DNA of 43,248 nucleotides from a virus. The position numbers and the translations under genes were made by a program. The stretch lies in IMG/VR virus record IMGVR_UViG_3300027749_000200, positions 1-43,248 of that record; one strand, written 5' to 3'. Below the pieces are notes generated by a model. The model was not told where the DNA came from, did no database searches, and saw only the letters and a program-made list of their open reading frames with translations. Numbering within the stretch: position 1 is the first letter of the stretch; each line of letters starts with the position of its first letter. This document shows positions 4,436 to 42,035 of the stretch, piece by piece.

Positions 4436-4705
4436 TTACTCTCCGTCATCAACACATTGGTTACATACAAGATTTGTCATATCGCTTTGTTCGTATGACA
4501 TATCACCAGCTTCGCAATTCCAGCCACATATATAGCAGTTGAACATTCGTTCATCTAGATAGCTTAAAATTGCTATTTCATTGGTATCGAAAAAACTCTG
4601 GCTCAAATCACAGTCTTCGATCATCTGGTCAATGATAAGCATTACATCATCTGGGGTACCACAGACTCGATCATAAATACTATCAGCTACTTGACTCGGG
4701 GTCAT
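4436..4705 (-). CDS. Zinc-ribbon hypothetical protein (89 aa)
   Basis: The C-terminal third has CYICGWNCE and, 18 residues later, CNQC: two CxxC knuckles, a zinc-ribbon layout. The N-terminal part is acidic and helical. The ATG at 4705 follows AAGGAGATAG; a TTG extension to 4726 would start in the -10 region. First gene of the seven-gene operon running to 2865. Confidence 0.7.
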   Translation of the reverse strand: MTPSQVADSIYDRVCGTPDDVMLIIDQMIEDCDLSQSFFDTNEIAILSYLDERMFNCYICGWNCEAGDMSYEQSDMTNLVCNQCVDDGE

Positions 4706-4725
4706 TTCTATCTCCTTATTAAACA

Positions 4726-4754
4726 AATATAAACCCTTGACCTGTAAAAGTCAA
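4726..4754 (-). promoter_or_regulatory. Promoter overlapping the kinase stop codon and a terminator hairpin
   Basis: Minus strand TTGACT (4749-4754), 17 nt, TATATT (4726-4731). The TGA in TTGACT is the stop codon of the kinase gene. A perfect 8-bp inverted repeat (4734-4741 and 4750-4757) followed by a T-rich run lies over the -35 and spacer, so one element can end one operon and start the next. Confidence 0.78.
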
Positions 4755-5218
4755 GGGCGAATATAGGTAATGGTAGAAAAACCCTCAGCTTCCGTGGGCA
4801 TCTCAAAATTCTTAGCCATAGACTTGAGTACGTTATCCGGAATAGATTTTCCAGGTCGTGAGTTAAGTCGACGTTCCCATTCCATAGGGTCTGGAGTAGG
4901 AAATACTACTGCCTCGAACTCATAACCATCAAGCATACGCATGAACCGCTTACGAGACTTCACACTAAGATTAGTACGATCAATGATGATATTGTCCTGA
5001 AAATATGCTGAGTCCTCAAGAGAACGCCACATCACCTTTTCCGCGAATTTAATAAGATCTTGGAAAACATCATCATAGCTAAGATCATACCTCTCGGCAA
5101 CGTTTTCGATGATGTTGTCCGTAGAAATAATCATAGTGCGTTCAAGTTCACCCTGCTCCTTGAGCCAAGTCGATTTGCCACTCGCAGGAACACCAATAAG
5201 AATAGTACACTTAGGCAT
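4751..5218 (-). CDS. Polynucleotide 5'-kinase, T4 Pnk N-terminal type (155 aa)
   Basis: P-loop GVPASGKST at residues 9-17, then STDNIIEN near 32 (the position of the catalytic aspartate in T4 Pnk), IIDRTNLS near 98, and RRLNSRPGKSIPDNVLKSM near 120-138, which parallels the arginine-containing lid of T4 Pnk. Transfers the ATP gamma-phosphate to 5'-OH RNA or DNA ends. The 3'-phosphatase domain of T4 Pnk is absent; a separate HAD phosphatase is at 17287 and a metallophosphoesterase is in this operon. Overlaps the ligase gene by 8 nt. Confidence 0.85.
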   Translation of the reverse strand: MPKCTILIGVPASGKSTWLKEQGELERTMIISTDNIIENVAERYDLSYDDVFQDLIKFAEKVMWRSLEDSAYFQDNIIIDRTNLSVKSRKRFMRMLDGYEFEAVVFPTPDPMEWERRLNSRPGKSIPDNVLKSMAKNFEMPTEAEGFSTITYIRP

Positions 5219-6104
5219 TAAAAAACTCCCTAACCCATGCTAGACGCTGTTGTTCAGTCATTATAGTATACGCTTCGATATTAGCCTGAATTGCATCAAT
5301 AAGAGGATAGTACTCTTCGTCAATGCTATTCTTAATATCAGGATGCATAAGCTTATCAGTACGAGGATTACGCGCTACAAATTTATTAATAAGGTAGTAA
5401 GGCGACTTAATCTTAGCTGCTCGACCATCTGCATGGTAGAACACAAAGCCCTCGTGCTTGCACTCCTTAGCCATTTCTTGTACCTGGGATACTGGAACAT
5501 TGTAAGTGCACTCTACAATTCGTGACCTAAATATCGCTGCGAATACCATTAGATATCGCAGGTCAACCTTAGAATCCCAATCCTTGGTACGATACCCAAT
5601 AAGATACATACCTGACCGCTCAGGTACAATATGCGGATCGCTAGGATGCACGCACTCAAACATGAAGGTAAGGTTGGGGTTCATTCGGCAAATAGAGCGA
5701 TACGCATCAATGTCGTTTCCGATCATATCATATACGTACTGTACGAAGTCACTATCAAGGCTACCAGTGGTGGACACTAGCAGATTGTCATTATGCCAGG
5801 TCACAGCGGCCATGAAACCATTGATCTTACGAAACACATCTACTCGATCAATAAAATTAAAACGAGGAGCACGCTTCTCTACACCGTAGTTATAGATTTT
5901 CGTGAAAGGACGTGACACAATATTGAAGTCAGCATCAACTACGAGCCCACGACATTCCTCTAGAATATCATTCCATAGGTTATCGTAGAACACGCGCTTT
6001 TTATACTTGATTACATAAAGTCCGGGATAGCGAACGCTCTCGCGCATCTGCACGAGCTTAGGGTTAGCTTCAATGAACTTCTTAAGATCGTTTCTAGTCA
6101 CCAT
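5211..6104 (-). CDS. RNA ligase, T4 Rnl1-like (297 aa)
   Basis: Covalent nucleotidyltransferase motifs in order: motif I KING (K93, the expected AMP-linked lysine), FECVHP near 150 (motif III/IIIa region), EGFVFYH (motif IV) and KIKSPYYL (motif V). The upstream CRGLVVDADFNIVSRPFTKIYNYG matches the conserved N-terminal region of Rnl1-type ligases. Joins 5'-phosphate to 3'-OH RNA ends, e.g. cut tRNA anticodon loops. The ATG at 6104 overlaps the phosphoesterase gene by 11 nt; TTG at 6140 is unlikely. Middle gene of an RNA-repair operon. Confidence 0.88.
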   Translation of the reverse strand: MVTRNDLKKFIEANPKLVQMRESVRYPGLYVIKYKKRVFYDNLWNDILEECRGLVVDADFNIVSRPFTKIYNYGVEKRAPRFNFIDRVDVFRKINGFMAAVTWHNDNLLVSTTGSLDSDFVQYVYDMIGNDIDAYRSICRMNPNLTFMFECVHPSDPHIVPERSGMYLIGYRTKDWDSKVDLRYLMVFAAIFRSRIVECTYNVPVSQVQEMAKECKHEGFVFYHADGRAAKIKSPYYLINKFVARNPRTDKLMHPDIKNSIDEEYYPLIDAIQANIEAYTIMTEQQRLAWVREFFNA

Positions 6105-6642
6105 GGTGTGCTTTAATCTTTCCTTTGAGGGCCTTGTCAATAGCCCACTCTAGTGGAACTACCACTGATCCAGTAGCGTCAAAACCAACGTCTACTGCGC
6201 GAAACTCTTCTAGTCCACTAGTACTACCGTGAAGGTGTCCATAAAAGTGTAGTGAGCCCCTATGCATAGCATTCCACTCTGCAATAGGATAGTGAAACAT
6301 TACGATCTTGCGCTTATCTACGGTAATTTCTAGGTAGTTATGAATCTCTTTGAAGCAGTTCCTAAAGAACTTATCTCTAAGAGCCTTCTCGTCGTGATTA
6401 CCAGATATTAGAATCTTTGTGCCCTGCAGCCTGTCGAAGATACGAGCAGTGTGGCTAGGCTCACGGTAAGAAATGTCTCCGAGAATGTATACAGTATCGT
6501 CGAAGTCAACGCTAGTGTTCCATTCTCGGATCATGGCTTCGTCCATTTCGTCAATGGAAGCGTATGGGCGGGTCTTCGCACAGAACTTTAGAATGTTTTT
6601 GTGTCCGAAGTGAAGATCTGATGTGATGAATGTCTTTGTCAT
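6094..6642 (-). CDS. Calcineurin-like metallophosphoesterase (182 aa)
   Basis: All binuclear-metal motifs are present: SDLHFGH (8-14), GDISY near 52, GNHDE near 78, and GHLHG near 133. First gene of an operon followed by RNA ligase and polynucleotide kinase, the same three activities that bacterial Pnkp fuses in one protein. It may therefore remove 3'-phosphate or open 2',3'-cyclic phosphate from RNA ends. Its ATG lies exactly 6 nt after the -10 box TATATT, with no room for an SD, so the message is probably leaderless. Confidence 0.85.
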   Translation of the reverse strand: MTKTFITSDLHFGHKNILKFCAKTRPYASIDEMDEAMIREWNTSVDFDDTVYILGDISYREPSHTARIFDRLQGTKILISGNHDEKALRDKFFRNCFKEIHNYLEITVDKRKIVMFHYPIAEWNAMHRGSLHFYGHLHGSTSGLEEFRAVDVGFDATGSVVVPLEWAIDKALKGKIKAHHGD

Positions 6643-6648
6643 GCCCTC

Positions 6649-6677
6649 AATATACAGAAAATGGCCCCTGTTGTCAA
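6649..6677 (-). promoter_or_regulatory. Promoter of the RNA-repair operon, within an inverted repeat
   Basis: Minus strand TTGACA (6672-6677), 17 nt, TATATT (6649-6654). It is enclosed by the perfect 8-bp arms at 6657-6664 and 6681-6688, which could terminate the upstream operon or serve as an operator. Predicted transcription start coincides with the ATG at 6642. Confidence 0.78.
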
Positions 6678-6690
6678 GGACCATTTTCAG

Positions 6691-7885: not shown

Positions 7886-8471
7886 ACGTTCTAGATAAGT
7901 ACTCACGGAAATCTTCTCCTCCATTATATAGTCCTCTTGCTAATATCATATCAAATATCCACTTCTTATTCTTCTTCCAGAAACGTGCTGCACGAAGTCC
8001 CTCACCGCTTGCAGCAAGTTTTTCATCAGCTTTCCAAAAGAACTCTATTGTATTAAATTCACACCCAACCTGCATGTGCCCATTATCTAGTACTGTAATA
8101 GGGTACTCAATACCCTGAACCATTAATGGAGAAGAATTTATGGTGGTTCCCTGCCATTCTACATTGGTAAAAGGTGAGTTCACAAAGTCTACTGTTGAAA
8201 GAAGCACGTCTTTCATTTCTGCACAGGTAAAGTTGCAGTTCTTAAATTGAGACGAAAAGAAATAAGTCCCATAAAACTTTGCGAACGTGAAGTCACAATT
8301 CTCAAATCTGGCACCAGTTATGTAGGCTCGTGTGAAGTCTGCACAAGAAAAGTTGCAATCTGTAAAAATTGCACCAAGAAAGTCGGCCCTTTCGAACCGA
8401 CTTCCCGTGAAGTTCTCATTACTATACTCTGCTAGATGAAGGTCTTTACGACTTAAATCATCGTACTGCAT
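7878..8471 (-). CDS. Pentapeptide-repeat protein (197 aa)
   Basis: Residues 1-125 contain tandem five-residue repeats of the A/C-D/N-F-x-x type (SRFERADFLGAIFTDCNF, CADFTRAYITGARFENCDF, FTFAKFYGTYF, NCNFTCAEMKDV), which fold as a right-handed quadrilateral beta helix. The last 70 residues are non-repeat. Some pentapeptide proteins mimic DNA and bind gyrase; a phage role in protecting or redirecting topoisomerases is possible but unproven. Overlaps the upstream gene by 14 nt. Confidence 0.85.
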   Translation of the reverse strand: MQYDDLSRKDLHLAEYSNENFTGSRFERADFLGAIFTDCNFSCADFTRAYITGARFENCDFTFAKFYGTYFFSSQFKNCNFTCAEMKDVLLSTVDFVNSPFTNVEWQGTTINSSPLMVQGIEYPITVLDNGHMQVGCEFNTIEFFWKADEKLAASGEGLRAARFWKKNKKWIFDMILARGLYNGGEDFREYLSRTYE

Positions 8472-8643
8472 AAAGCTCCTTCAAAGGCACATAAGTTGCC
8501 CTGCCCTCATACTCTACTTCAGCATAGGACACACCGTTCATGGTTCCCGCAACTTTAATAAGCTTTACGGGAATATCATGATCCTTGCTGCGCCATACGT
8601 ATTTACGTCGAAACGTAGGAAAAAACATATTAAAAATAAGCAT
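8458..8643 (-). CDS. Small basic hypothetical protein (61 aa)
   Basis: Starts MLIFNMFFPTFRRKYVWRSK, then two predicted strands around VKLIKVAGTMNGVSYAEVEY, an SH3-like barrel pattern. ATG in a TGATG overlap with the upstream stop, with AGGGAG upstream inside that gene. The hydrophobic start is too short for a secure membrane segment. Not recognised. Confidence 0.62.
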   Translation of the reverse strand: MLIFNMFFPTFRRKYVWRSKDHDIPVKLIKVAGTMNGVSYAEVEYEGRATYVPLKELYAVR

Positions 8644-8852
8644 CAAAAAGTCTCCCTTACTTCGTGGCCTAGATGTGCAATAATCATCTTATATACAGTT
8701 TCACTAGAATACTCAGCACTACCAAAACAATATGCTACTGGTTCTAGTTCAAAAATTTCTACACCATCAATGGTGACAATCGCACCTTCAGCAGAAGTAT
8801 AGCCGCAGCTATCACAGTCGTGTTCATCAGTAAGCCATTTAATGTTAATCAT
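8643..8852 (-). CDS. Small CxxC hypothetical protein (69 aa)
   Basis: Starts MINIKWLTDEHDCDSCGYTS with a single CxxC, then strand-like VTIDGVEIFELEPVAYC. The ATG at 8852 follows ACGGAGATTGAGC. First gene of a four-gene operon; longer readings from 9071 run through the divergent promoter region and are rejected. Function unknown. Confidence 0.68.
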   Translation of the reverse strand: MINIKWLTDEHDCDSCGYTSAEGAIVTIDGVEIFELEPVAYCFGSAEYSSETVYKMIIAHLGHEVRETF

Positions 8853-8876
8853 GCTCAATCTCCGTTTTGTTGCCCT

Positions 8877-8951
8877 GTTATAACAAGTTTGGGGCTGCAA
8901 GTCAAGATTTAAAAAATGAGACTTGACAATCGTGTTTGTTTTTAGTATATT
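8877..8951. promoter_or_regulatory. Divergent promoter region
   Basis: Minus strand TTGACT (8900-8905), 17 nt, TATAAC (8877-8882) drives the operon to 7784. Plus strand TTGACA (8923-8928), 17 nt, TATATT (8946-8951) drives the accessory operon from 8971. Only 17 nt separate the two -35 boxes, so both RNAPs compete for one site. Confidence 0.82.
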
Positions 8952-8970
8952 GGGCCATAAGGAGAAAGAA

Positions 8971-9216
8971 ATGATTAAATTTTTTGTTGGTTTTGCTGCT
9001 CTTGCGTTGGCTTCTACCTCGGCCAATGCATCTAGCCCCGAGTTTGACCGTTTCTTTGCTGAAATACGCAAAGAAAGATCACTTCACAAAGAAGTGCAGG
9101 CACTTCGCAATGAAGTATTTGAGGAAGAGGCTTTGTATAGTATTCGGGAAGCTATTATAGTTGTTCGCGAAGTTCGAATTCAACAAAAGCTTGTTCGTAA
9201 AAAGAAGGGACGTTAA
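8971..9216 (+). CDS. Small exported protein with signal peptide (81 aa)
   Basis: N-terminus MIKFFVGFAALALASTSANA is a clear Sec signal peptide: lysine, hydrophobic core, and ANA before SS as a signal-peptidase I site after residue 20. The mature ~61 residues are highly charged and helical (FDRFFAEIRKER, EVQALRNEVFEEEALYS), ending in KKKGR. Expected in the periplasm. GGAGAAAG lies just before the ATG, with a consensus promoter upstream. Exported phage proteins near early promoters can alter the envelope or block superinfection, but this one is not identified. Confidence 0.78.
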   Translation: MIKFFVGFAALALASTSANASSPEFDRFFAEIRKERSLHKEVQALRNEVFEEEALYSIREAIIVVREVRIQQKLVRKKKGR

Positions 9217-9217
9217 T

Positions 9218-9811
9218 ATGCAAAATGAAGAAACGATCCGTGCAGCGTGCGCTGAGGCGGGAAGCACTCAGCCCGACATTATCATCAATCGTATTTGGTA
9301 TTGCGTTGAAAACGGCATACCGCTTGATTCGTACTTGCACGCCATCCTCGCCCTTGCCCGCCGCATTGAGGCCGAGCAGGCTGCGGTGCTTGGACCAGAG
9401 CAGCGTTGTCCTGCTTGTTACGTCAAGTTTCAAGTAGTGCATGACGTAGACACGCACCTTGCCCACCCACCCACCGACCGCGAGCGCGTTGAGGCCGAGC
9501 AAACTGCAGTGCCGGATTGCGAGGGCGAAATATCCGACGATCAAATGCGTGCTTTGCGGATACTGGCTAATGCTCGCAGCGTTCACCATCCTGTTGACCG
9601 AGAGAAACTGGAAACCACACCGACACTGTTACTCTGCCAGCAGCGCGAGCGCATTGCGGAACTGGAGGCGGCTTTGCGTAAGTGCGGTGATCAATTCCAG
9701 TTTTATGCAAATGAGCATGAAGCAGCGGGTAAGATAGAAAAAGCGGCAACTAACCAACGGTTTGCGGACCTGTGCAGCCAAGCCCTGAAAGGAACCGGCA
9801 ATGATACGTGA
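9218..9811 (+). CDS. GC-rich coiled-coil protein (197 aa), Ead/Ea22-like flavour
   Basis: Alternates charged helices (RRIEAEQAAVLGPEQR, RERVEAEQTAVPDCEG) with a C-terminal ERIAELEAALRKCGDQ that resembles the end of Ead/Ea22-type phage proteins. A possible metal site is CPACYVKF plus later His residues. GC content and codon use are much higher than in flanking genes, so it looks recently acquired, perhaps from a GC-rich host or phage. ATG at 9218 with AAGGGACG upstream. Function unknown. Confidence 0.65.
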   Translation: MQNEETIRAACAEAGSTQPDIIINRIWYCVENGIPLDSYLHAILALARRIEAEQAAVLGPEQRCPACYVKFQVVHDVDTHLAHPPTDRERVEAEQTAVPDCEGEISDDQMRALRILANARSVHHPVDREKLETTPTLLLCQQRERIAELEAALRKCGDQFQFYANEHEAAGKIEKAATNQRFADLCSQALKGTGNDT

Positions 9812-11367: not shown

Positions 11368-11812
11368 CCTTGCTAGTAAATGGAGTAAGGAAGAGACCCA
11401 ACTTCTTGAAAAACATTTAAACAACGATGACTACGAAGAACTTTGTGAACTGTTTCCGGGGCGTACAAAAGCGGGTATTAAAGCTAAGCAGAAACGGCTT
11501 ATTAAATCTAAGGAAAGCAAGATGCCAGAAGCTATAGCTCGTGGCATATTTAAATATTACTTAAATGAAGAAGCTGAGGGCCAAATTCTTCTCAGGCTTA
11601 GAGCAGCGGGTCACGACTACACCTTGAAAGATATTTCAGTTGCAGTTAGAGACTGTAAACTGCTGTTTTCTGAGCAATTAAAAGCGTATGCTGACCAACA
11701 TAATCTCACTAGAAAATATAAGATTCCAACTTTACCACAACTTAAAAACTTTATTGAAGCAACCAAGCTTGGCGACGAAGTCGCCCTACGAAAGGCAGTC
11801 ACACATGGCTAA
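11357..11812 (+). CDS. SANT/Myb-like DNA-binding protein (151 aa)
   Basis: Near the N-terminus: KWSKEETQLLEKHLNNDDYE, then ELFPGRTKAGIKAKQKRLIK. This is a SANT/Myb repeat with the tryptophan, the EE acid pair and the GRT.AGI.AK recognition helix. The rest is helical (LRLRAAGHDYTLKDISVAV, KIPTLPQLKNFIEATK). The start is uncertain: GTG at 11357 overlaps the upstream stop, TTG at 11333 is also open. Probably binds DNA; may regulate phage genes or act in a homing-like element. Confidence 0.65.
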   Translation: MFDNLASKWSKEETQLLEKHLNNDDYEELCELFPGRTKAGIKAKQKRLIKSKESKMPEAIARGIFKYYLNEEAEGQILLRLRAAGHDYTLKDISVAVRDCKLLFSEQLKAYADQHNLTRKYKIPTLPQLKNFIEATKLGDEVALRKAVTHG

Positions 11813-12125
11813 ACGCTGGACACAAGAAGAGGATGATTTACTACTTAAGCTAAGAACAGAAGGCTACACTAGCAGAGAGATGACTCTCTATCTTAAAGAA
11901 CGCACACATGCCGCGATTAGAACTAGACTGGTTGTAATTGCGCCAGACAATCTAAATCGTACATGGACCGAAGCAGAAAAACTACAAGCGCTAGAGTTAC
12001 AAGCGGAACAAAAAAGTAATAAATACATTGCTAGAGTACTTAATCGAACTCCAAGGGCAATCGCATCTTTTCTATCTAGACACTGGAACAGCGTTGCTAG
12101 AGAACCCTCGGCAGAAAAAGATTAA
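11805..12125 (+). CDS. Two-repeat Myb/SANT-like protein (106 aa)
   Basis: Repeat 1: KRWTQEEDDLLLKLRTEGYT then KERTHAAIRTRL. Repeat 2: RTWTEAEKLQALELQAEQKS then NRTPRAIASFLSRHW. Both show the W-T-EE/AE start and the RT..AI..RL recognition helix, so this is a tandem DNA-binding protein without an enzymatic domain. ATG overlaps the upstream stop region. The same repeat type is fused to a GIY-YIG-like domain at 18624. Confidence 0.75.
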   Translation: MAKRWTQEEDDLLLKLRTEGYTSREMTLYLKERTHAAIRTRLVVIAPDNLNRTWTEAEKLQALELQAEQKSNKYIARVLNRTPRAIASFLSRHWNSVAREPSAEKD

Positions 12126-12145: not shown

Positions 12146-12174
12146 TTGCAATTCTGCTATGAGTATGATATAAT
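12146..12174 (+). promoter_or_regulatory. Promoter facing the structured non-coding region
   Basis: TTGCAA (12146-12151), 17 nt, TATAAT (12169-12174). No ORF follows for 600 nt on this strand; the first structured hairpin starts about 50 nt downstream. Confidence 0.75.
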
Positions 12175-12179
12175 CTACT

Positions 12180-12716
12180 ATAAGTTTTAGATAGTTAGTT
12201 ATATATTTCATATGTTTTATTTATTGAAGTTCCGATCGACGGGCTGGGGTGGGGGCCCCAGTCCCCGTCGTATTCGGGACCTTCAAATCTAATTTATGAG
12301 AGCTAAGCTGCACCGTAATAACAAGTAAGTGAACGAAGTTCACAAACATTATTACTGATTGAAGCTACAACTGCGTCCGCTACATTGCTTAAAAATTTTT
12401 TGCCCTTTTAACGGGTTCGATATCAACTTATATTTAATTTCATTCTGGTTGAGGATAAGCTTTCACGAAGTCGGACTCTAGCCCCGCCGCAGGCCGAATG
12501 CTGGCCGCCATTTGCCTAGAAAAGCTCGAAATATCATTGAAAATGCGCACGAAGTGCGCTGGCCCTGCTTTCGACTCTTACAAGATCGAAAACAGGGCTA
12601 TTATTTTGTCTAAATTTCACTAGAGTCGAAAAATTGCTCAAAACTAGCCGCCGGCACCACTACAATTAAAAAAAATTTGGCGCTTTTTGCTGCTAGGGTG
12701 CCAAAAAACAGCAAAA
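12180..12716 (+). ncRNA. Candidate large structured RNA
   Basis: A ~540-nt non-coding transcript is expected from the 12146 promoter. It holds a long GC-rich hairpin (12224-12286; inner stems CGACGGG/CCCGTCG and CTGGGG/CCCCAG), a two-part hairpin at 12315-12355 (GTAATAA/TTATTAC outside GTGAAC-GAA-GTTCAC), a GCGCAC-GAA-GTGCGC hairpin at 12545-12559, a 12-bp hairpin at 12562-12598, and long-range pairs such as GACTCTAG (12474) with CTAGAGTC (12619). At 12676-12717 two interleaved pairs could form a pseudoknot. No ribosome-binding site or ORF explains it. Comparable to ornate phage RNAs such as GOLLD or ROOL in size and setting, but homology is not shown. Confidence 0.5.
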
Positions 12717-12750
12717 AACCCGCCCAGAGTTGCCTCCAAGCGGGTTTAAG
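12714..12750 (-). terminator. Terminator of the 12772 gene
   Basis: On the minus strand AAACCCGC, a 16-nt loop, GCGGGTTT, then TTTTGC. It also forms the 3' boundary of the plus-strand non-coding transcript. Confidence 0.8.
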
Positions 12751-12771: not shown

Positions 12772-13011
12772 TTAATTTGCTTCAAAAATCTCAAAAGAAG
12801 CAGAAAAATCGTCCCTAAGCACGATTTCACCAATTACTAGCTCAGTTTCGTCAGACTCGACGAAAACAATGTCAAACACGGTCGGACGATCGTAGTCGTC
12901 AATCTGAAGTTCGACCCTGTCTATGTCGTAGTTAAGAAAAACCTCAGGAATAGCAATCGCAAACTGACGAAGCACGTTTTCAATGTCATCGCGGATAGAA
13001 ATAGAACGCAT
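12772..13011 (-). CDS. Acidic hypothetical protein (79 aa)
   Basis: Starts MRSISIRDDIENVLRQFAIA and alternates helix with strands rich in Asp/Glu (RVELQIDDYDRPTVFDIVFV); an alpha/beta acidic fold, perhaps a DNA mimic, which is only a guess. RBS AGGAGATCAAC, own promoter and own terminator: a single-gene unit, like several others in this region. Confidence 0.7.
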   Translation of the reverse strand: MRSISIRDDIENVLRQFAIAIPEVFLNYDIDRVELQIDDYDRPTVFDIVFVESDETELVIGEIVLRDDFSASFEIFEAN

Positions 13012-13064: not shown

Positions 13065-13119
13065 CACCAATTTTCAACAGACTTGCGAACTTCGTTCGCA
13101 GGCTTGGTTAAAATTTTAC

Positions 13120-13265: not shown

Positions 13266-13299
13266 GAAAAAGCCTGCTACAGTTGTCGCTGTAGCAGGC
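13266..13299 (-). terminator. Minus-strand terminator
   Basis: Perfect 11-bp stem GCCTGCTACAG/CTGTAGCAGGC with a 6-nt loop, followed on the minus strand by TTTTT. It ends transcription of the 13438 gene and isolates the rightward promoters. Confidence 0.85.
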
Positions 13300-13437
13300 C
13301 GATTCCGTACTTAGCCGATCCGTCGTAGGCTCTGTTCGTCGTTTCGTGTTAAACAGGCTCTAGGAGGAATCCGGTCGTGTACTGCAACTTCCGGGGGCGG
13401 TGTGGAAGTTATCTACTCCCTCGCGCCCCCGTGTTAC

Positions 13438-13749
13438 TTACGCACTCAGACGAGTGCGCAGGGTCTGAAGGACCAGCTTCGGGGCCTTCTCAAGACCGTC
13501 GAGGTTCTTGCCCACAAGAGCAGCGATATCAGCCACGATGGCTTCCTTCGACTCGACCTTGCCGCCAGTCTTGGACACCTTGTCCTTAGCCTTGTAAGTA
13601 CCGAGGCGGACTGCCTTAGCACGAATCGAGCGCACATCCTTACCGAACTTAGCGGCGAACTCCAGAGCGAGTTCATTGTCGATCACGCCAGCGGCTTCGA
13701 GTTCAGCTTCCTGAGCGGCGGTGTAGTTCTTCACAACTTCCTTGGACAT
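13438..13749 (-). CDS. HTH-like paralogous DNA-binding protein C (103 aa), optional 133-aa form
   Basis: Closest relative is paralogue D at 16645: both contain DVRSIRAKA, VSKTGGKVESKE and LEKAPKL. The layout is helices, HTH-like segment near residues 38-53, linker, C-terminal helices. The ATG at 13749 follows AGGAGAT. A second ATG in frame at 13839 has its own strong SD (AGGAGGGAAC) and its own promoter, and would add 30 residues (MIETISAIIKKFLTGK and on). Abundant small nucleoid-type or regulator proteins would look like this; DNA binding is inferred. Confidence 0.75.
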   Translation of the reverse strand: MSKEVVKNYTAAQEAELEAAGVIDNELALEFAAKFGKDVRSIRAKAVRLGTYKAKDKVSKTGGKVESKEAIVADIAALVGKNLDGLEKAPKLVLQTLRTRLSA

Positions 13750-13774
13750 TTCATTATCTCCTGTTGATGAAATC

Positions 13775-13803
13775 ATATTAGACGATTTGGGCTTGCCAGT
13801 CAA
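13775..13803 (-). promoter_or_regulatory. Promoter for the short form of paralogue C
   Basis: Minus strand TTGACT (13798-13803), 17 nt, TAATAT (13775-13780). It lies inside the coding sequence of the long form. Confidence 0.75.
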
Positions 13804-13863
13804 GAACTTTTTTATGATTGCTGAAATCGTTTCAATCATCTGCCGTTCCCTCCTGACCCATCC

Positions 13864-14439: not shown

Positions 14440-14572
14440 ATACGTATGCGGAAAAATTTTTCGCTTGACAAACGCGTAGAAACCTGCTAAAATCGGCGCC
14501 AGGCGGCTGTCGGCGCTGCCACATCCATTATAGCAGGATCCAGCGCGCTTGTCAATAGGAAAAATTGCGATT
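14440..14572. promoter_or_regulatory. Convergent-promoter module A
   Basis: Palindrome ATACGTAT (14440-14447), rightward TTGACA (14465-14470), 17 nt, TAAAAT (14488-14493), 33 nt containing GGCGCC, then leftward TATAAT (14527-14532), 17 nt, TTGACA (14550-14555), then GGAAAAATTGCG. The two promoters point at each other, so 5' parts of the transcripts would be complementary. Confidence 0.78.
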
Positions 14573-14642
14573 CCAAAAAATAATTCTCGCCCAGGCGCGG
14601 CATGGAACAAAACGTGAACAAAAATTTTGGCGCCCGCAGGGC

Positions 14643-14671
14643 ATCTTAACAGGGATTGCGCGCCTTGTCAA
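14643..14671 (-). promoter_or_regulatory. Leftward promoter, partial module
   Basis: Minus strand TTGACA (14666-14671), 17 nt, TAAGAT (14643-14648), with GGCGCC and AAAATTTT next to it. The opposite, rightward promoter is degenerate, so this seems a decayed copy of the module. Confidence 0.6.
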
Positions 14672-14691
14672 GAGGAAAAATCGCCTGTGGA

Positions 14692-14726
14692 TAAAAAAAT
14701 AAGGCCGGGATTGCTCCCGGCCTATC
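14692..14726 (-). terminator. Terminator of the exonuclease operon
   Basis: Minus strand AGGCCGGG, AGCAAT, CCCGGCCT, then TATTTTTTT. Confidence 0.88.
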
Positions 14727-14731
14727 GCGTT

Positions 14732-14917
14732 TTACTTTTGCTCTACTGTAACATATACAGTAAAATTCAAATCCAATTCTTGGAAGATTTTAACATCTAC
14801 TATCGAGCGACCTCCCTCTACTAGCGTTCTTGCATATAGCAAGGCGTCCTCAATTTTTTCGTAAGTATCGGTTTCTTCGACTTCATCGTATCCGCCAATA
14901 ACTTGAACAAGAAACAT
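14732..14917 (-). CDS. Small hypothetical protein (61 aa)
   Basis: Starts MFLVQVIGGYDEVEETDTYE, followed by a helix EDALLYARTLVEGGRSIVDV and strands; an acidic alpha/beta mini-protein resembling small phage proteins with a ferredoxin-like beta-alpha-beta pattern. RBS AAAGGATT. Co-transcribed after the exonuclease, separated by a strong hairpin at 14938-14961. Function unknown. Confidence 0.68.
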   Translation of the reverse strand: MFLVQVIGGYDEVEETDTYEKIEDALLYARTLVEGGRSIVDVKIFQELDLNFTVYVTVEQK

Positions 14918-14937
14918 AAATAATCCTTTCTAGTGAT

Positions 14938-14961
14938 GGGCGGGATTTCTCCCGCCCTAGT
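14938..14961 (-). terminator. Intercistronic hairpin
   Basis: Stem GGGCGGG/CCCGCCC with a 6-nt loop immediately after the exonuclease stop, but without a T run. A partial terminator, processing site or 3'-end stabiliser. Confidence 0.55.
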
Positions 14962-14967
14962 TGCGTT

Positions 14968-15687
14968 TTACTTGGGAACAAACCAATCCTTGACCTGATA
15001 TTCGCGCCAATTGTAAGCGGGAACGTCGAACAAGTCCTTAGTCTTAGTATTGCGAAGAATAGTGGAAAGAATAGGCAATTCATAATCGCGAACATCTTCG
15101 AAAGCCGTGTGCGGCTCGTCGTCAAGTGACGGATTATTAAGAACAAATCGAGCCATGATTTCGGCATCAGTATGATAGGACATATTGCCGTGCTTAGTGG
15201 GAGTATTAAAGCCGACAGTATCAAGAACAAACTGGCGATATGCTTTAGTCTTAGCATACTTATTAGCGGCAACGTGCCAGAGGCAGAACGAACGGTCGAA
15301 CATATCTGTATCAATGCCAGAATTGCCGAGCTTGTTCTTGTCGAAAGCCCAATTATAGGCGGTGACAATCGGATTATACTTTGCGTTTACTTTGGCAAGC
15401 CAGCGATTGATTGCCGGAACCGAAGCAAGCATGCGTCGGCCATCAGTAAGCATATTATCATATGCAGCATAACGGCGGGGAAGGTTACGTTGACCCCAAA
15501 GCGGATCAGCCGATTGATCGTGAAACAAAGTATTGTTGTCACGGTCCAGATAGTATTCGCGCACAAGTAGTGCAGCCGAATGAAGTATTTCACCCTTACG
15601 ATTAGTGACAATCGCGCCAAAATCAGCAACAGTATTGCTGATAGTGGTTTCCGTGTCAATAATCAGGAAGTGGTCAGCCTTAGCCAT
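14968..15687 (-). CDS. DEDDh 3'-5' exonuclease (239 aa)
   Basis: Exo I LIIDTETT (residues 8-15) gives the D and E; Exo II AYNWAFDKNKL near 110-120 gives the second D; Exo III HTAFEDVRDYELP near 194-206 gives H....D. This is the RNase H-fold DnaQ/RNase T class. Acts on 3' ends of single-stranded DNA or RNA; no polymerase domain attached. Could trim host RNA, replication intermediates or tRNA. RBS GGAGACAC. First gene of its operon. Confidence 0.85.
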   Translation of the reverse strand: MAKADHFLIIDTETTISNTVADFGAIVTNRKGEILHSAALLVREYYLDRDNNTLFHDQSADPLWGQRNLPRRYAAYDNMLTDGRRMLASVPAINRWLAKVNAKYNPIVTAYNWAFDKNKLGNSGIDTDMFDRSFCLWHVAANKYAKTKAYRQFVLDTVGFNTPTKHGNMSYHTDAEIMARFVLNNPSLDDEPHTAFEDVRDYELPILSTILRNTKTKDLFDVPAYNWREYQVKDWFVPK

Positions 15688-15718
15688 TTTAGTGTCTCCG
15701 TGCCGTCTTGGCCTGTCC

Positions 15719-15746
15719 CTTATATCAGATTGCGCGAATCCGTCAA
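15719..15746 (-). promoter_or_regulatory. Promoter of the exonuclease operon
   Basis: Minus strand TTGACG (15741-15746), 16 nt, TATAAG (15719-15724). Confidence 0.7.
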
Positions 15747-15802
15747 ATAAAATCGACAGGCAAAAAACGCAAATCTGTGGATAACTTTTTTCGCTCTGGG
15801 GG

Positions 15803-15832
15803 TTGACAGCATATGCGCGCGCGTGCTAATAT
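15803..15832 (+). promoter_or_regulatory. Rightward promoter of a candidate small RNA
   Basis: TTGACA (15803-15808), 18 nt rich in GCGC, TAATAT (15827-15832), then GGAAGTAGCGTGC. A near-copy with GAAAGTAGCGTGC follows the promoter at 17851. Confidence 0.65.
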
Positions 15833-15838
15833 GGAAGT

Positions 15839-15900
15839 AGCGTGCAAAATTTTTGGCGCGGCGGCGCAAATAAGCCTTTGAAAACAAAGGCTTATTTTAT
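15839..15900 (+). ncRNA. Candidate ~60-nt small RNA
   Basis: Bounded by the 15803 promoter and a plus-strand terminator hairpin (AAGCCTTTG-AAAA-CAAAGGCTT, T-rich tail). It contains GCGTGCAAAATTTTTGGCGC and no start codon. It is divergent from the exonuclease operon and convergent to the 15905 gene. Confidence 0.4.
15868..15900. terminator. Bidirectional terminator
   Basis: AATAAGCCTTTG/CAAAGGCTTATT with a 4-nt loop. T-rich tails exist on both strands, so it ends the 15905 operon leftward and the small RNA rightward. Confidence 0.82.
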
Positions 15901-15904
15901 TGTT

Positions 15905-16099
15905 TTATTGCAATGGGTTATCGGGCAAGTGCAAGCGGATTTCGTTTACCTTGCCGCTATACGATTGCCATAGCAGCCCCAGCAAATCCGCGATATTCTC
16001 AAAAATCGAATCCTCCAGCCCACAATTTTCTAGCATATCGGGCAATTCGATTTTCGCAAGAAAATCAATAGTTTCTTGCGTCAAAAACAATTCTTCCAT
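15905..16099 (-). CDS. Small acidic hypothetical protein (64 aa)
   Basis: Starts MEELFLTQETIDFLAKIELP, acidic and helical, ends HLPDNPLQ. RBS GAAAGGAAAAATT before the ATG at 16099. Downstream partner of the PQ-loop-like membrane protein, 32 nt apart, ending in the bidirectional terminator. Not recognised. Confidence 0.68.
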   Translation of the reverse strand: MEELFLTQETIDFLAKIELPDMLENCGLEDSIFENIADLLGLLWQSYSGKVNEIRLHLPDNPLQ

Positions 16100-16131
16100 A
16101 ATTTTTCCTTTCAAAACAAAGCCTTGGGGGA

Positions 16132-16407
16132 TTAACCCCGAGGATAAACAATTAGAGCCAAAAGAATAGTATTAACGAAAAAACCGAATCCGTTGGATAC
16201 CATATATAGAACGTCTTTATTCTTAAACGCCCGAACAAAGTAAAGAGCAAGACCTGCCCATACTAGCAGAACCATAGACAAAGGCGGCAATTTATTGCTA
16301 TAGCCAAGTAATACGCTAATGGTAGTTGGCAATGTTGCTGATTGCACAAGTATCATGCCAAGCCAGCCGGACAATTCCGTGGCGGGCATTTTGAGAATCT
16401 TTTTCAT
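16132..16407 (-). CDS. Three-TM membrane protein, PQ-loop/SemiSWEET-like (91 aa)
   Basis: Three hydrophobic segments: about 10-30 (WLGMILVQSATLPTTISVLL), 36-54 (LSMVLLVWAGLALYFV) and 66-88 (GFGFFVNTILLALIVY). The Q....P in helix 1, a polar loop, and N.FGF..N in helix 3 match the pattern of SemiSWEET half-transporters, although helix 1 has LPT where PQ is usual. Inner membrane expected. The start is ambiguous between 16428 and 16407; AAAGG favours 16407. May alter host membrane or transport; unproven. Confidence 0.65.
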   Translation of the reverse strand: MKKILKMPATELSGWLGMILVQSATLPTTISVLLGYSNKLPPLSMVLLVWAGLALYFVRAFKNKDVLYMVSNGFGFFVNTILLALIVYPRG

Positions 16408-16470
16408 TTGTTTGCCTTTCGTTTCCATGAATTGACCCTAGCAGAATCCGCCAAGCCTACAAGCAAATAA

Positions 16471-16605
16471 ATACGTATGCGCTGCGATTTTTTCGCTTAA
16501 CAAGTGTTTTAGTCCGTGGTATAATTTTGGCGCATCCTGGCCAAATTTTTGGCGCCTATCCCATTATAGCATAGCGCCGCAGGCTTGTCAATAGGAAAAA
16601 TTGCG
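16471..16605. promoter_or_regulatory. Convergent-promoter module B
   Basis: ATACGTAT (16471-16478), rightward TTAACA (16497-16502), 17 nt, TATAAT (16520-16525), TTTGGCGC, leftward TATAAT (16563-16568), 17 nt, TTGACA (16586-16591), then GGAAAAATTGCG. The leftward promoter is the likely source of the membrane-protein operon, with a ~150-nt leader. Confidence 0.82.
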
Positions 16606-16610
16606 GGAAA

Positions 16611-16640
16611 ACAAAAAGCCGGGGATTTCTCCCCGGCCCT
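16611..16640 (-). terminator. Terminator of paralogue D
   Basis: Minus strand GGCCGGGG, AGAAAT, CCCCGGC, then TTTTTGTTTT. Confidence 0.88.
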
Positions 16641-16644
16641 ATTG

Positions 16645-16983
16645 TCAAGCAGAAAGAGCCGCCCGAATGTTTTGCAATGCCAGCTTGGGAGCCTTTTCGA
16701 GGCCATCCATATTTTTGCCAACAAGCGCGGCGATGTCCGCCGTGATATCTTCCTTACTTTCAACCTTGCCGCCAGTCTTTGAAACCTTGACAGCCGCTTG
16801 ATAAATGCCCATACGGGTTGCCTTAGCGCGAATCGAGCGAACGTCTTTGTCAAGCTCGATTGCAAGCGCCTTAGCAAGCTCGCCATCAATCTTGCCGCTA
16901 GTCGTCGCGGCGGCGGCTTCCGTAAGGCGTGCTTCCTGCGCGTCCGAATAGTTCTTTTCGGTCTTTGCGGTGGTGGTAGCCAT
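16645..16983 (-). CDS. HTH-like paralogous DNA-binding protein D (112 aa)
   Basis: Fourth member of the family. It shares with C the segments DVRSIRAKATRMGIYQA (near residues 45-61), VSKTGGKVESKE and ADIAALVGKN, and the ending DGLEKAPKLALQ. The identity with C (13438) is far higher than with A or B, so C and D are a recent duplicate pair inside the module-rich region. RBS AAAGGAAA. Own promoter and terminator, flanked by modules B and C. Confidence 0.78.
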   Translation of the reverse strand: MATTTAKTEKNYSDAQEARLTEAAAATTSGKIDGELAKALAIELDKDVRSIRAKATRMGIYQAAVKVSKTGGKVESKEDITADIAALVGKNMDGLEKAPKLALQNIRAALSA

Positions 16984-17034
16984 GAGAGAAAATTTCCTTT
17001 TTATCGCGAGAGGCCCATCCCCTCTTGATGTCCC

Positions 17035-17063
17035 CTTATAACGCGGGCTTGGCAGGCTGGCAA
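17035..17063 (-). promoter_or_regulatory. Promoter of paralogue D
   Basis: Minus strand TTGCCA (17058-17063), 17 nt, TATAAG (17035-17040). Confidence 0.7.
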
Positions 17064-17092
17064 GAAAAAAATGAAGCAATGCCGATTAATAA

Positions 17093-17230
17093 ATACGTAT
17101 GCGTTGGGCATTTTTCGCTTGACAGCCTTACGGAAACCTGCTATAATTTTGGCGCCAGTGGGCCGCCGCATATAGCGCATCACTCCATTATAACATGCGG
17201 GCCAGGCCCTGTCAATAGGAAAAATTTCTC
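17093..17230. promoter_or_regulatory. Convergent-promoter module C
   Basis: ATACGTAT (17093-17100), rightward TTGACA (17119-17124), 17 nt, TATAAT (17142-17147), TTTGGCGCC, 39 nt in all, leftward TATAAT (17187-17192), 17 nt, TTGACA (17210-17215), then GGAAAAATT. Same order and spacing as modules A and B. Confidence 0.82.
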
Positions 17231-17286: not shown

Positions 17287-17763
17287 CTATGCCGCAAGCC
17301 TTTCGTTTTGCTTAGTAGCGTTGAAACAATTAATACCTATTGAAAGCATTGCCGCGATAACTTTCAAGTTATCATCAAACATAATTGCGTTTGCTTCCTT
17401 AGCGCAAGTAAAGCCTTGCGAAACAAAGTATTCAGTAAGCAATTCAACCTTAAGCTGGCCATCCGGGCGATTGTCACCAATTGCACCGCGCGACAAGTAA
17501 ACGTCATAGCTAAGGCCATGAGAGGCAAGAAATTCTTGATCCGCAATTTGAAACGAGCGGGCAGTGCAAATAATAACAGTGTGACCAGCCGCCTTGATAT
17601 TGCGCATTTGTGCAGCAAGAGGCAGAAGCGTATCTTGCATGATTTTTTCATGGGTGTTATTTTCCAGCCAATCGGCAAGGTTTAGTGAGCCATCCGGCAA
17701 AGTATTCTGGCGGTGAGTCGAGTCGATAACTGTGCCGTCGAGGTCGAAAATTACGTAAGCCAT
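17287..17763 (-). CDS. HAD phosphatase resembling the Pnk 3'-phosphatase domain (158 aa)
   Basis: HAD motifs: IFDLDGTVIDS (5-15), IICTAR near 75, QLKVELL near 116, IMFDDN near 136. The segment YDVYLSRGAIGDNRPDGQLK resembles the end of T4 Pnk and eukaryotic-like polynucleotide phosphatases (YD..L.R...D.RPD..LK). Likely removes 3'-phosphate from nucleic-acid ends or acts on nucleotides. It complements the kinase at 4751, as if T4 Pnk were split. ATG at 17763 with ACGGAGAAACG; own promoter and terminator. Confidence 0.78.
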   Translation of the reverse strand: MAYVIFDLDGTVIDSTHRQNTLPDGSLNLADWLENNTHEKIMQDTLLPLAAQMRNIKAAGHTVIICTARSFQIADQEFLASHGLSYDVYLSRGAIGDNRPDGQLKVELLTEYFVSQGFTCAKEANAIMFDDNLKVIAAMLSIGINCFNATKQNERLAA

Positions 17764-17787
17764 TTCGTTTCTCCGTCTTGATGCCCT

Positions 17788-17816
17788 CTTATAACTTGGC
17801 ACCGCACCCTAGTCAA
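17788..17816 (-). promoter_or_regulatory. Promoter of the HAD gene
   Basis: Minus strand TTGACT (17811-17816), 17 nt, TATAAG (17788-17793). Confidence 0.78.
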
Positions 17817-35927: not shown

Positions 35928-38900
35928 ATGGCAAACAACGCACAATTTGATATTCTAATTAATGCTGTAGGTGACTTAACCAAGGCAATAAAGGAAACAA
36001 AATCTTTAGGTAGTGCCGTAGATGGTGTTGCTAAAAGTCAGGATAAAGCAGCTAAAGCTGGTAAAACACATAATGATGTAATGAACGGCGGAGTAGCTAG
36101 TGCTAATAACGCTGGTCGCAGTATGTCAAAGCTAATGGAAACAGTGGGCGGCAATAATAGCGGACTAGTAGCAGCGTATGCAACGTTAGCAACTAATGCC
36201 TTCGCTGTTAGTGCCGCCTTTACTAGTTTAAAGTCAGCTTATCAAGCCCAACAGTTACTTGCAGGACTAGAAGCTCAAGGTGCAAGAACAGGTAAAACTT
36301 TAACTACGGTAGCAGAAAGTGTTAGAAAATTAAGTGGTGAAGCAATAAGTGCTGCTGATGCCATGAGATATACTGCACAAGCTTCCTCTGCTGGTATAGG
36401 TGGTAAAGATTTAGAAAGACTAACTAAAGTAGCTACAGCATCTGCCAGAGCTTTAGGTAGAGATGCTCCGGATTCTATTAACCGTCTAATTATGGCTGTT
36501 ACTAAAGCAGAACCAGAATTAGTAGATGAATTAGGGTTAACTATAAAGCTAACCGAAGCTCAACAGATGTATGCTAGACAAACAGGTAAAACTGCCAGTA
36601 GCTTAAGTCAACTTGAAAAACAACAAGCATTAGTTAATGCTTGGGCTTCTCAAGGTGAAGCTAAGTTTGGCGCATTAGCAGAAAGTGTAGACCCTAATCC
36701 ATATGACCAATTAGCTTCTTCTTTCACAAATTTAACTAATACTATATTAAACTTTGCAAATAATGTTGGTGTAGTATCTATGGTAAAAATACTTGGAAGT
36801 GATAAACTAGCTTTAACAGCAGCTTTACTATTTTTAGTTAATACCGTTAAAGGACAACTGCTACCAGTATTCGCAGAAGCAAGTAAAGCAGCTAAAAAAC
36901 TGGCAGACGAAAGACTATCATCACTAGCTACTGAAAGAACTGAACAAGAAAAACTACAAAAAGATCTTGCTGCTAAACAAAAAGCCAGTACTAAATTAGT
37001 TAGTGGTCTAACTACTGCAGGTATTACACCACCAAAAGGATATAAAGACTGGGTAGCCTCATTAAATGATGGTACTAATAGTACAGAAAAATTTACTGCG
37101 GCACAAAAAAGTTTAAGATTATCAATATCTCAAAATCAATCACTAGCAGATAAAGCTGCAGAAGGTAACCTAAAAAACGGTAAAACTGAAAAAGATTATA
37201 TAGAGATTAAAAAAGCTCATGAAAAAGAATTACTTAATATGCAAAAGTATTATACTAATTATGGGACTTTACAAAGTGAGATAGCTACAAGTACAGAAAA
37301 ATTAGCAAAAATAGAACAAGAATCCTCTTTAGTGATGCAACAAGCTAAAGCTCAGGATGCTAGATCAGATGCTATATCTAGCTTATCAAAATTAGAACTA
37401 AAGAATTCCATAAATTCCTTAATAGTTAGTACAAAAGCTTATGCTCAAGCTTTACAAGAAGAAAGGATACTTAAAGTAGGAGAGACTGAGGCAACTTACG
37501 CTGCCTCCGCCGCTAATACTTTATTTGCAAGGTCACTTATTATTACTAAAGCAAGCTTATTTGGAGCAGTAACTGGGGTTAAAGCAATTGGTGCAGCTAT
37601 TTTAGAATGGCTACCATACTTAGGACTTGCTGTTGTGGCTTGGGATTTATTAATGGGTGCAATAAGTATGCTAACTCCTGATTCTTGGAAAAAGCAAGCT
37701 GCTGCTTATGATACACTAACAGCAGTTGTATCTAGTACTATAGATAAACTTGAAGCTTTAAAGAAAATAGAAGAAAGTAACTCCTCAGTAGCTGATAAAG
37801 GAACAGCAGGGCTACTAAATCGTATAAATACTTTAGCTGAAATTACTATAGCCTATGATGAGTACAATAAAGCTATAGCTGACTCAACAAAAGAAGAAAG
37901 TAAGGGTGTGGGTACAATATTTAGCTTATCTGGTGCTGTAAAATCTCTATTTGATGGAACAGGGCTTCTTGTTTATGGTTGGGAAGTTTGGAAAAGAAGT
38001 ATAAATGATACTGCTGGTATTGATGAGTTAGTTGGAAAAATATATGATATTGGACCAACTTCTTCAAAAGCAGAAACAGCTGCCGCTGCTATGTTATCTT
38101 CTATTCATAAGCAGCTTCCAAAGACTACAGAAGCTTTTATAGCTGCCAATGGCGGACTAAAAGGTATGTCAGATGAAGCTAGAAATGAGAAAGTAACAGA
38201 ATTTCTTAAGAAAATTCAACCAATTGCTGAGAGTGCACAAAAACAAGTTCAAGAATTATCTGGTGCAATAACAACTCTTAATAACTCCTATAGCGACTTT
38301 ATAAATAGCTTAAAAGTATCAACACCATATGATAAGTTAAGTGACTCATTAAGTAACGTATTAGGTATAACTAGTAAGTTAAGAACAGATTTAAAATCTG
38401 GGATTTTTAAGAAAGAAGATATAGCAAAAACTGTAGCAGATCTTAATGCAAGTATGGGTAGTATTGGTGATGGAATGCTAAGCACTACTACTAAGAAAGC
38501 TTATGATAATGTCACATTAATAGATAAAGCTATTCAAGAACTAAAAGTAAAACAAACTGGATTAAATAGTACTACTCTAGACTATATAAATATACAAAAA
38601 GAAATCGAGTCTCTAAATAAGAAGAAAGAGGGATCTTTAGTTACTTTTAGTACTTTAGCTGAGGCCGACCTAAAAACTTTATATAAAAGAGTATATCAAA
38701 GTAGATTAGATTCTATCTCTCAACAATCATCTTTAGCTCTTGCTCAAGCTAGGTTAGCTGTAACGGAGCGCCAAGGTTTATTAAGTAAAGAAGATATTGC
38801 TAGAGATATTGATGCTAAAAATCATATTATAAAACTACAGGCAGATATCCAAAATGCTCAAGTACAGTATCTAGAAGGTCTTCAGTTACAAAAGAAAGAG

Positions 38901-41900: not shown

Positions 41901-42035
41901 GTTCAAGATATTCTTGTGAGCCAGAAGGGTAATATCATTAAGATGCTTAGAGAAGCCGCTAATGCTTCGGGCAAGACATTCATGGAGGATGTAAACGTTA
42001 ATGTTTATACTCGTCCATCTGTTGGGAAGTTATAA
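35928..42035 (+). CDS. Tape measure protein with M15 peptidase domain (2035 aa)
   Basis: Very long, mostly helical and alanine/lysine-rich, with hydrophobic stretches near 545-580 (ILEWLPYLGLAVVAWDLLMG) and near 1840-1860. The N-terminus has LVAAYATLATNAFAVSAAF, typical of tape measures. Residues about 1505-1625 form a D,D/L,D-peptidase M15 (VanY-like) domain: SGIRSTNRQQEIWDAG, PHEKENALDIP and GDPGHIQL with the three metal ligands. Sets tail length and probably cuts peptidoglycan during DNA entry. Length predicts a tail around 300 nm at 0.15 nm per residue. Confidence 0.93.
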   Translation: MANNAQFDILINAVGDLTKAIKETKSLGSAVDGVAKSQDKAAKAGKTHNDVMNGGVASANNAGRSMSKLMETVGGNNSGLVAAYATLATNAFAVSAAFTSLKSAYQAQQLLAGLEAQGARTGKTLTTVAESVRKLSGEAISAADAMRYTAQASSAGIGGKDLERLTKVATASARALGRDAPDSINRLIMAVTKAEPELVDELGLTIKLTEAQQMYARQTGKTASSLSQLEKQQALVNAWASQGEAKFGALAESVDPNPYDQLASSFTNLTNTILNFANNVGVVSMVKILGSDKLALTAALLFLVNTVKGQLLPVFAEASKAAKKLADERLSSLATERTEQEKLQKDLAAKQKASTKLVSGLTTAGITPPKGYKDWVASLNDGTNSTEKFTAAQKSLRLSISQNQSLADKAAEGNLKNGKTEKDYIEIKKAHEKELLNMQKYYTNYGTLQSEIATSTEKLAKIEQESSLVMQQAKAQDARSDAISSLSKLELKNSINSLIVSTKAYAQALQEERILKVGETEATYAASAANTLFARSLIITKASLFGAVTGVKAIGAAILEWLPYLGLAVVAWDLLMGAISMLTPDSWKKQAAAYDTLTAVVSSTIDKLEALKKIEESNSSVADKGTAGLLNRINTLAEITIAYDEYNKAIADSTKEESKGVGTIFSLSGAVKSLFDGTGLLVYGWEVWKRSINDTAGIDELVGKIYDIGPTSSKAETAAAAMLSSIHKQLPKTTEAFIAANGGLKGMSDEARNEKVTEFLKKIQPIAESAQKQVQELSGAITTLNNSYSDFINSLKVSTPYDKLSDSLSNVLGITSKLRTDLKSGIFKKEDIAKTVADLNASMGSIGDGMLSTTTKKAYDNVTLIDKAIQELKVKQTGLNSTTLDYINIQKEIESLNKKKEGSLVTFSTLAEADLKTLYKRVYQSRLDSISQQSSLALAQARLAVTERQGLLSKEDIARDIDAKNHIIKLQADIQNAQVQYLEGLQLQKKEDLDRAIRQAEELTRLQAMTEENRKSMLLAAEQALALEKGRGRLGQGGQGPDFQAIETYQTIIDKLEKAKDPGIADKATQDVEKAKRDYELFTAQVNAQKKMVEAINLGAITASEKTAQMAKGDLSILKERAQLEGARDDAIQKKLENERLIQNLASKGLTIAKNEFLTIKDTSKNKIDSANESYDFKVKELEIDKTLAAAQGRTEDVKIYEARLKLIKEEHSVTLENLNTEERLQIYGKIDLDTTEKKLALLKQVLDVQIALADQQKTMLDKEQELYRLKVENAVNKRGGVLSETAQKAVEAKAAQEQLNLAEKQLALRKIGISLEYDILEAKRVLLREELKAKKAEADKLAATAKTPLEKSAAEDLSRTLSSAIEGVGAQSYEVLKKSALRIADMDVDILRERAIKAYNELNAKFVTPNLFDKMKEAQNNAQILREAFIARKTQQNTPDQIAPKAIVDRQKELADAINTNFPVLIAQIDKAIAPKTEATLAGVSNTPSKRTLDSMLNQGSYNIDYKGEFGKRVSAMLNEYFDMTSRSNPISVVSGIRSTNRQQEIWDAGHFDESGKRVTSAGRPIAKPGTSPHEKENALDIPTNIWDDLISKGLLKKFGLGTVSGDPGHIQLDKSATNILEAAQTGAKPLSVSVVNTATTTSVPNTAAATTATLTATDTPASITAGALDSLSTVKTADMPSTDIVGVADTAKAGAESIKLSFIENLAVAKEQVQPLLEELKKLGPDGELAVSIIDGADSMIGAFSTFFESIKAGGVSIDNVTSLASTAISALTAINDASAKSKSAAIDKEISAEEKRDGKSAASVAKIAALQKKKEAEERKAFENNKKLKMAETVINTAAAIAKALPNIPMAILAGAMGAAQLAVIASASYSGYTAPPAAVSTPSTLSVGKQGDTVNLAKGPNANAGGEVGYLRGSSGTGSNASNYRTVGSAYGGDLMRGYGNRGFVVGEKGPEVITPDTPISVTPANDIQASAPINANISIHALDSHGVQDILVSQKGNIIKMLREAANASGKTFMEDVNVNVYTRPSVGKL

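Follow-up and report, generated by a model that had tools for sequence, protein, structure and literature searches.

A candidate structured non-coding RNA with repeated cGAAg hairpins in a lineage of T5-like phages

Few large structured phage RNAs are known, and the roles of GOLLD and ROOL are an open question. The CsrB/RsmZ sponges are intergenic, terminator-ended RNAs with several hairpins that carry a constant loop on variable stems. ROOL RNAs contain pseudoknots, and one of them has 659 nt (PMC12286853); in OLE, ROOL and GOLLD hairpins with conserved loops form contacts between molecules (PMC12286853). As DNA, hairpins with a 3-base loop serve as promoters for the N4 virion polymerase (PMC4496689).

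The locus described here lies in a 43,248-base IMG/VR fragment (IMGVR_UViG_3300027749_000200) of an uncultured T5-like phage, the whole of which was analysed and is called the window below. Its terminase shares 46-49% identity with the terminases of Vibrio, Pectobacterium and Serratia Demerecviridae, and its layout runs from seven tRNA genes at the left end, through genes on both strands, to head and tail genes. Judged from sequence, one intergenic region of the window very probably encodes a free-standing structured non-coding RNA of this lineage, running from ~12181 to ~12610 or ~12750, in which the skeleton is kept while the letters change. As a whole, the locus would be best explained (probability roughly 0.6) by a structured phage RNA that acts in trans via its cGAAg loops. 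Five distinct sequences, all metagenomic, were compared: the window, G003 (IMGVR_UViG_3300021963_000083; G004, 3300021962_000113, is identical to it over the 1,100 bases compared), G021/L108 (3300032092_000229, with the RNA locus cut by the contig end), G022/L109 (3300022752_000379) and G007 (3300023174_000099). The features are as follows, with positions in the window unless a relative is named.

11805-12125, plus strand: HTH/Myb-like ORF, the upstream neighbour, with homologues before the RNA in L109 and G007
12146-12174, plus strand: sigma70 promoter TTGCAA-17-TATAAT with extended -10 box (TG), read from the sequence, with counterparts in four relatives
12181-12223, plus strand: AT-rich 5' leader from a predicted start site, read from the sequence, its start resembling L109, G007 and G003
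12224-12286, plus strand: P1, a long 5' compound stem, -40.3 kcal/mol, z -5.6 with short flanks
12315-12355, plus strand: cGAAg hairpin (12329-12343) inside GTAATAA/TTATTAC, part of a 42-nt stretch alignable with G003
12356-12530, plus strand: central region, partly conserved and mostly unpaired by sequence comparison, with CTCTAGCCC near 12476
12545-12559, plus strand: second cGAAg hairpin, GCGCA-CGAAG-TGCGC, with an invariant loop and compensatory stem changes
12561-12612, plus strand: terminator-like hairpin, then TATTATTTTGTC, in all five homologues, with 5 of 10 pairs changed on both sides
12676-12717, plus strand: H-type pseudoknot, TTTGGC/GCCAAA with TTTTTGCTG/CAGCAAAAA, its place and topology kept in G003 and L109
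12716-12747, no strand assigned: final hairpin CCCGCC...GCGGG, with equivalents in G003, L109 and G007
12772-13011, minus strand: acidic 79-aa ORF, convergent and kept beside the RNA, a locus marker and neighbour rather than part of the RNA
L108:416-861 and L127:2891-3379, minus strand: true GOLLD RNAs of two relatives, in tRNA clusters, matched by RF02032

All features named in an earlier note on this DNA are present where it had placed them, among them the TATAAT promoter (its -10 box turns out to be preceded by TG), the long compound stem, the nested stems at 12315-12355 and the GCGCA-CGAAG-TGCGC hairpin; what it had listed as a 12-bp hairpin was also found, at 12561-12610, and now looks like a first terminator kept in five homologues. 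Host RNA polymerase would start at ~12181, the predicted transcription start, from the RNA's own promoter. The counterpart boxes are TTGACT/TATTAT in G003 and L108, TTTACA/TATAAT in L109 and TTGACT/TATAAT in G007, all with 17-nt spacers. The region from 12146 to 12720, described earlier as ORF-free and intergenic, indeed holds no ORF longer than 42 aa on either strand, and the predicted fold of these 575 nt, at -163.5 kcal/mol (z -4.3), is lower in energy than that of each of 100 dinucleotide shuffles. Both strands of these RNA loci fold better than shuffles, so the strand is chosen not by folding energy alone but by the promoter and the CGAAG orientation.

The region of the -10 box is separated from the first terminator by 437 nt in the window, 580 in G003, 600 in L108, 480 in L109 and 496 in G007. 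The first terminator is probably the hairpin at 12561-12610, since all five sequences keep it and its tail is U-rich. The one at 12716-12747 received its terminator score on the opposite strand and thus would serve mainly the convergent minus-strand gene, while possibly also ending a long form of the RNA. The stretch up to 12747, with the pseudoknot inside it, is conserved, G003 being alignable through it with L109 and with the window; since the first terminator is conserved as well, we propose two forms, a short one of ~430 nt and a long one of ~570 nt. The 3' end may accordingly lie near 12610 or near 12750, the transcript either stopping at the hairpin or continuing via the pseudoknot. A promoter, a structured RNA of 430-570 nt, an intergenic position and an AT-rich leader in the window and G003 would also suit a transcription-primed replication origin, with the structured transcript as pre-primer in the manner of ColE1 RNA II or the T4 R-loop origin; we hold this to be very unlikely, as there is no GC-skew switch beyond the effect of gene direction, L109 and G007 have only a short AT-rich leader, and nothing else origin-like was seen.

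Searching the window region by blastn against annotated phages and plasmids returned no match, as did the L109 copy against phages, and single-protein scans with the two neighbour ORFs of the RNA found no relatives. Since the DNA searches were empty, relatives were sought via the terminase, and they were reached through it together with whole-contig searches, a DNA pattern and protein alignments. In the window, G003, L109 and G007 this comparison revealed the same gene order, with the promoter followed by an ORF-free stretch, a terminator and a convergent ORF of ~80 aa, and in L108 a promoter, an ORF-free stretch and a terminator-like hairpin, after which the contig stops before the convergent ORF. 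The homologues keep the order of their elements and are mostly unalignable in sequence, with few alignable stretches: MAFFT gave no useful alignment of the 5' half of the RNA, and blastn aligned 42 nt of the window with G003 (81%). Beside the RNA, the very acidic ORF is 73% identical in L109, 65% in G003 and 30% in G007; it has no Pfam or PHROG match, and its AlphaFold model is unreliable (mean pLDDT 50.5). On the upstream side a different gene, pentapeptide-repeat-like by eye, precedes the RNA promoter in G003 and L108, and because the upstream gene varies between phages, the RNA does not belong to a single conserved gene as its 3' UTR. Separately, the window holds at 13283-13440 (minus strand) a structured, conserved 3' UTR of a DNA-binding ORF (13438-13839), whose internal loop region is wholly changed between the window and L109 and whose flanking stem CTGTT/AACAG is kept.

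The predicted skeleton comprises a long 5' stem, several cGAAg hairpins, a weakly structured middle, cGAAg plus terminator-like hairpins, a pseudoknot and a final hairpin. Each of the five RNAs has a P1-type stem of 23-45 bp (z -4.1 to -6.7); its sequence is common to G003 and L108, and is unrelated among the window, the G003/L108 pair, L109 and G007. Conservation of the central region is strong among G003, L108 and L109 and weak in the window and G007, and no consensus structure could be modelled for it. The 3' module of cGAAg and terminator-like hairpins shows compensatory evolution, with 92.5% of cells paired, both sides changed in 9 of 16 pairs, and a covariation score of 0.644; shuffles gave 0.252 +/- 0.064, none of the 500 reaching that score, and slid partners did not exceed 0.19. 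In a tandem cGAAg element of 58 nt, found in two sequences (L109 and G007), all 17 pairs are preserved, with compensatory changes at 4; it is predicted to fold into a single long stem interrupted by a GAA/GAA internal loop. The earlier suggestion of a large structured non-coding RNA is thus backed by homologues in related phages and by compensatory base changes.

The interleaved complements that had been put forward as a pseudoknot recur with the same topology and other sequences in two homologues, i.e., in three phages in all: in the window, G003 and L109 they immediately precede the final hairpin, and each phage has its own set of arms. The chance of such an arrangement per sequence is 0.2-0.8% in shuffles of 50 nt, or 0.35-0.74% with the longer helix as given, figures that are somewhat optimistic since the loop limits were set after seeing the cases. 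The pseudoknot is absent from G007. R1, a covariance model built on the 3' module, scores 59-81 bits in six member contigs and at most 25.5 bits elsewhere in 36 viral records, with nothing convincing in 30 other viral records or in T5, My1, PG07 and Ceto. Those weak matches look like ordinary terminators; the inspected one, in L138, is a terminator that follows a small ORF. An 18-base word conserved in the middle region has no exact match in the available genomes from 84,980 species of bacteria and archaea, which gives no sign of the RNA copying a host RNA; this was one of two scans of such genomes, and neither found a match.

An alternative is that the region is ordinary intergenic sequence, made up of terminators and read-through-controlling hairpins that separate convergent operons, and does nothing as an RNA. 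The position between convergent genes, the fast sequence change and the presence of several hairpins that are terminators would agree with this; the consensus promoter that each of the five sequences has at its upstream edge, the compensatory evolution of non-terminator hairpins, the CGAAG bias and the kept pseudoknot would not, and we regard it as a remote prospect.

As to that loop bias, among hairpins with a five-base loop and at least 4 pairs, the five RNAs hold 14 with CGAAG and no more than 3 with any other loop, the C(GAA)G caps being mostly ACGAAGU. Inside the RNAs 14 of 20 CGAAG occurrences sit on a stem of at least 4 bp, versus 9 of 368 outside (Fisher p 1.7e-15, for sequences that are related and not fully independent), and the opposite orientation, CTTCG, does not occur within the RNAs. 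A constant loop repeated on changing stems is expected where the loop is the recognised part. Presenting one loop repeatedly in this way could serve protein titration or scaffolding, or the joining of RNA copies, so our tentative proposal, held at somewhat under even odds, is that the RNA acts in trans through these invariant loops. A protein-titrating or scaffolding RNA would fit by analogy with CsrB/RsmZ, whose many hairpins with one loop have their likeness here in the 14 CGAAG hairpins; this is analogy only. Membership of that class was rejected, the repeated loop being CGAAG rather than the CsrA/RsmA-binding GGA, with no Rfam match. As for antisense action, the available parts of the same genomes hold no complement of at least 13 nt, except the cGAAg palindrome itself in G007.

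Hairpins of the d(GCGAAGC) type are unusually stable as DNA, which speaks for a DNA-level element: the cGAAg repeats would be single-stranded or extruded DNA mini-hairpins, serving as promoters for a phage polymerase or in replication or transfer, with the RNA as a by-product. The N4 virion polymerase promoters, likewise short hairpins with a 3-base loop, supply a precedent (PMC4496689). Some cGAAg hairpins do lie outside the transcription unit, mostly within ~1.1 kb of the RNA, and the loop of a palindromic hairpin with conserved flanks is inverted between the window (13084-13100, CTTCG) and its L109 counterpart (reverse complement, ~4690-4710, CGAAG), and these leave room for a DNA-level role. 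However, all copies inside the unit share one orientation, G-U pairs occur in the terminator and P1 helices, and the unit includes a pseudoknot as well as a promoter and a terminator. The N4 hairpins moreover act as DNA and need the virion polymerase, whereas the present ones lie inside a sigma70 transcription unit, and the largest ORF of the window (35928-42035), which covers the smaller part of this phage's genome, encodes a tape measure rather than a virion polymerase. On balance the DNA-level explanation seems improbable to us.

The earlier note had likened the RNA to GOLLD and ROOL on account of size, phage origin and a tRNA-rich genome; its sense of the context was good, these phages being tRNA-rich and GOLLD-bearing, and membership of either family was not borne out. 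At gathering score, Rfam covariance searches matched none of 4227 families, GOLLD, ROOL, OLE and HEARO included; at E up to 10 there were just weak chance matches that resemble terminators. In two close relatives a true GOLLD (RF02032) accompanies the present RNA, in the contigs of L108 (210.8 bits) and L109 (179.5 bits), within tRNA clusters and on the strand opposite to it. GOLLD resembles the present RNA in being large, structured and found in tRNA-rich phages, yet there is no model similarity, locus and strand differ, and both coexist in one genome. The conserved 3' domain model of GOLLD (at least 150 bits) is not matched here, and the nearest tRNA gene of the window is ~10.7 kb off, whereas the GOLLD of L108 and L127 is inside a tRNA array. 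The present RNA is thus a second, separate RNA beside GOLLD, and appears to be a hitherto undescribed, conserved RNA family of the T5-like lineage that matches no catalogued one. ROOL shares with it a phage origin, a similar length and pseudoknots, and differs in that no Rfam match exists and the hallmark here is the repeated cGAAg hairpin. A retron or DGR RNA was also set aside, with no PF00078 reverse transcriptase match in the incomplete contigs of the window, G003, G007, G021 and G022.

A self-assembling RNA would nevertheless fit by analogy with OLE, ROOL and GOLLD (PMC12286853). In its strongest form this would be an oligomeric or nanocage RNA in the GOLLD/ROOL manner that belongs to neither family, for which we see a slim chance. 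Consistent with it are the size, the phage and tRNA-rich setting, the pseudoknot, the invariant loops on variable stems and the conserved-loop contacts between molecules in OLE, ROOL and GOLLD (PMC12286853); near-palindromic cGAAg hairpins could also pair between copies via GAA/GAA internal loops, the intramolecular version of which is predicted in L109 and G007. Against it stand the missing match to GOLLD and ROOL and the weakly structured middle. Broader, and still rather unlikely, is a second, unrelated large "ornate" RNA of GOLLD-bearing phages whose cGAAg loops would let it bind other copies of itself or a protein of the host or the phage; if true, this would be a new class of phage RNA machine. 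A second RNA family in GOLLD phages gives a handle on large structured phage RNAs, its simple repeated loop lending itself to mutation or to use as bait.

The tRNA order of the window, Glu-Lys-Phe-Leu-Ala-Val...Lys, is that of L127 at 7940-9412, where GOLLD lies ~4.5 kb further out than the matching tRNA run; as the window ends short of that point, its phage probably has GOLLD too, just past the left end. Phage-encoded tmRNA genes of permuted, alphaproteobacterial type occur in G007 and G021 (L126:9457-9768, plus strand; L128:8235-8604, minus strand), and this type hints at an alphaproteobacterial host. With tRNAs, permuted tmRNA, GOLLD and the present RNA, one T5-like lineage would have an unusually RNA-rich genome. 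The window also encodes an AAA_33 kinase, a T4-type RNA ligase and a PNKP-like phosphatase (4751-6684 and 17287-17802, both minus strand), possibly a tRNA repair set. Intergenic regions at 14465-17215 hold consensus sigma70 promoters facing each other, with the starts of their -35 boxes 90-96 bases apart (14465 plus/14555 minus, 16497 plus/16591 minus, 17119 plus/17215 minus); a GGCGC-like sequence follows several of the plus-strand promoters, and similar elements are seen in relatives.
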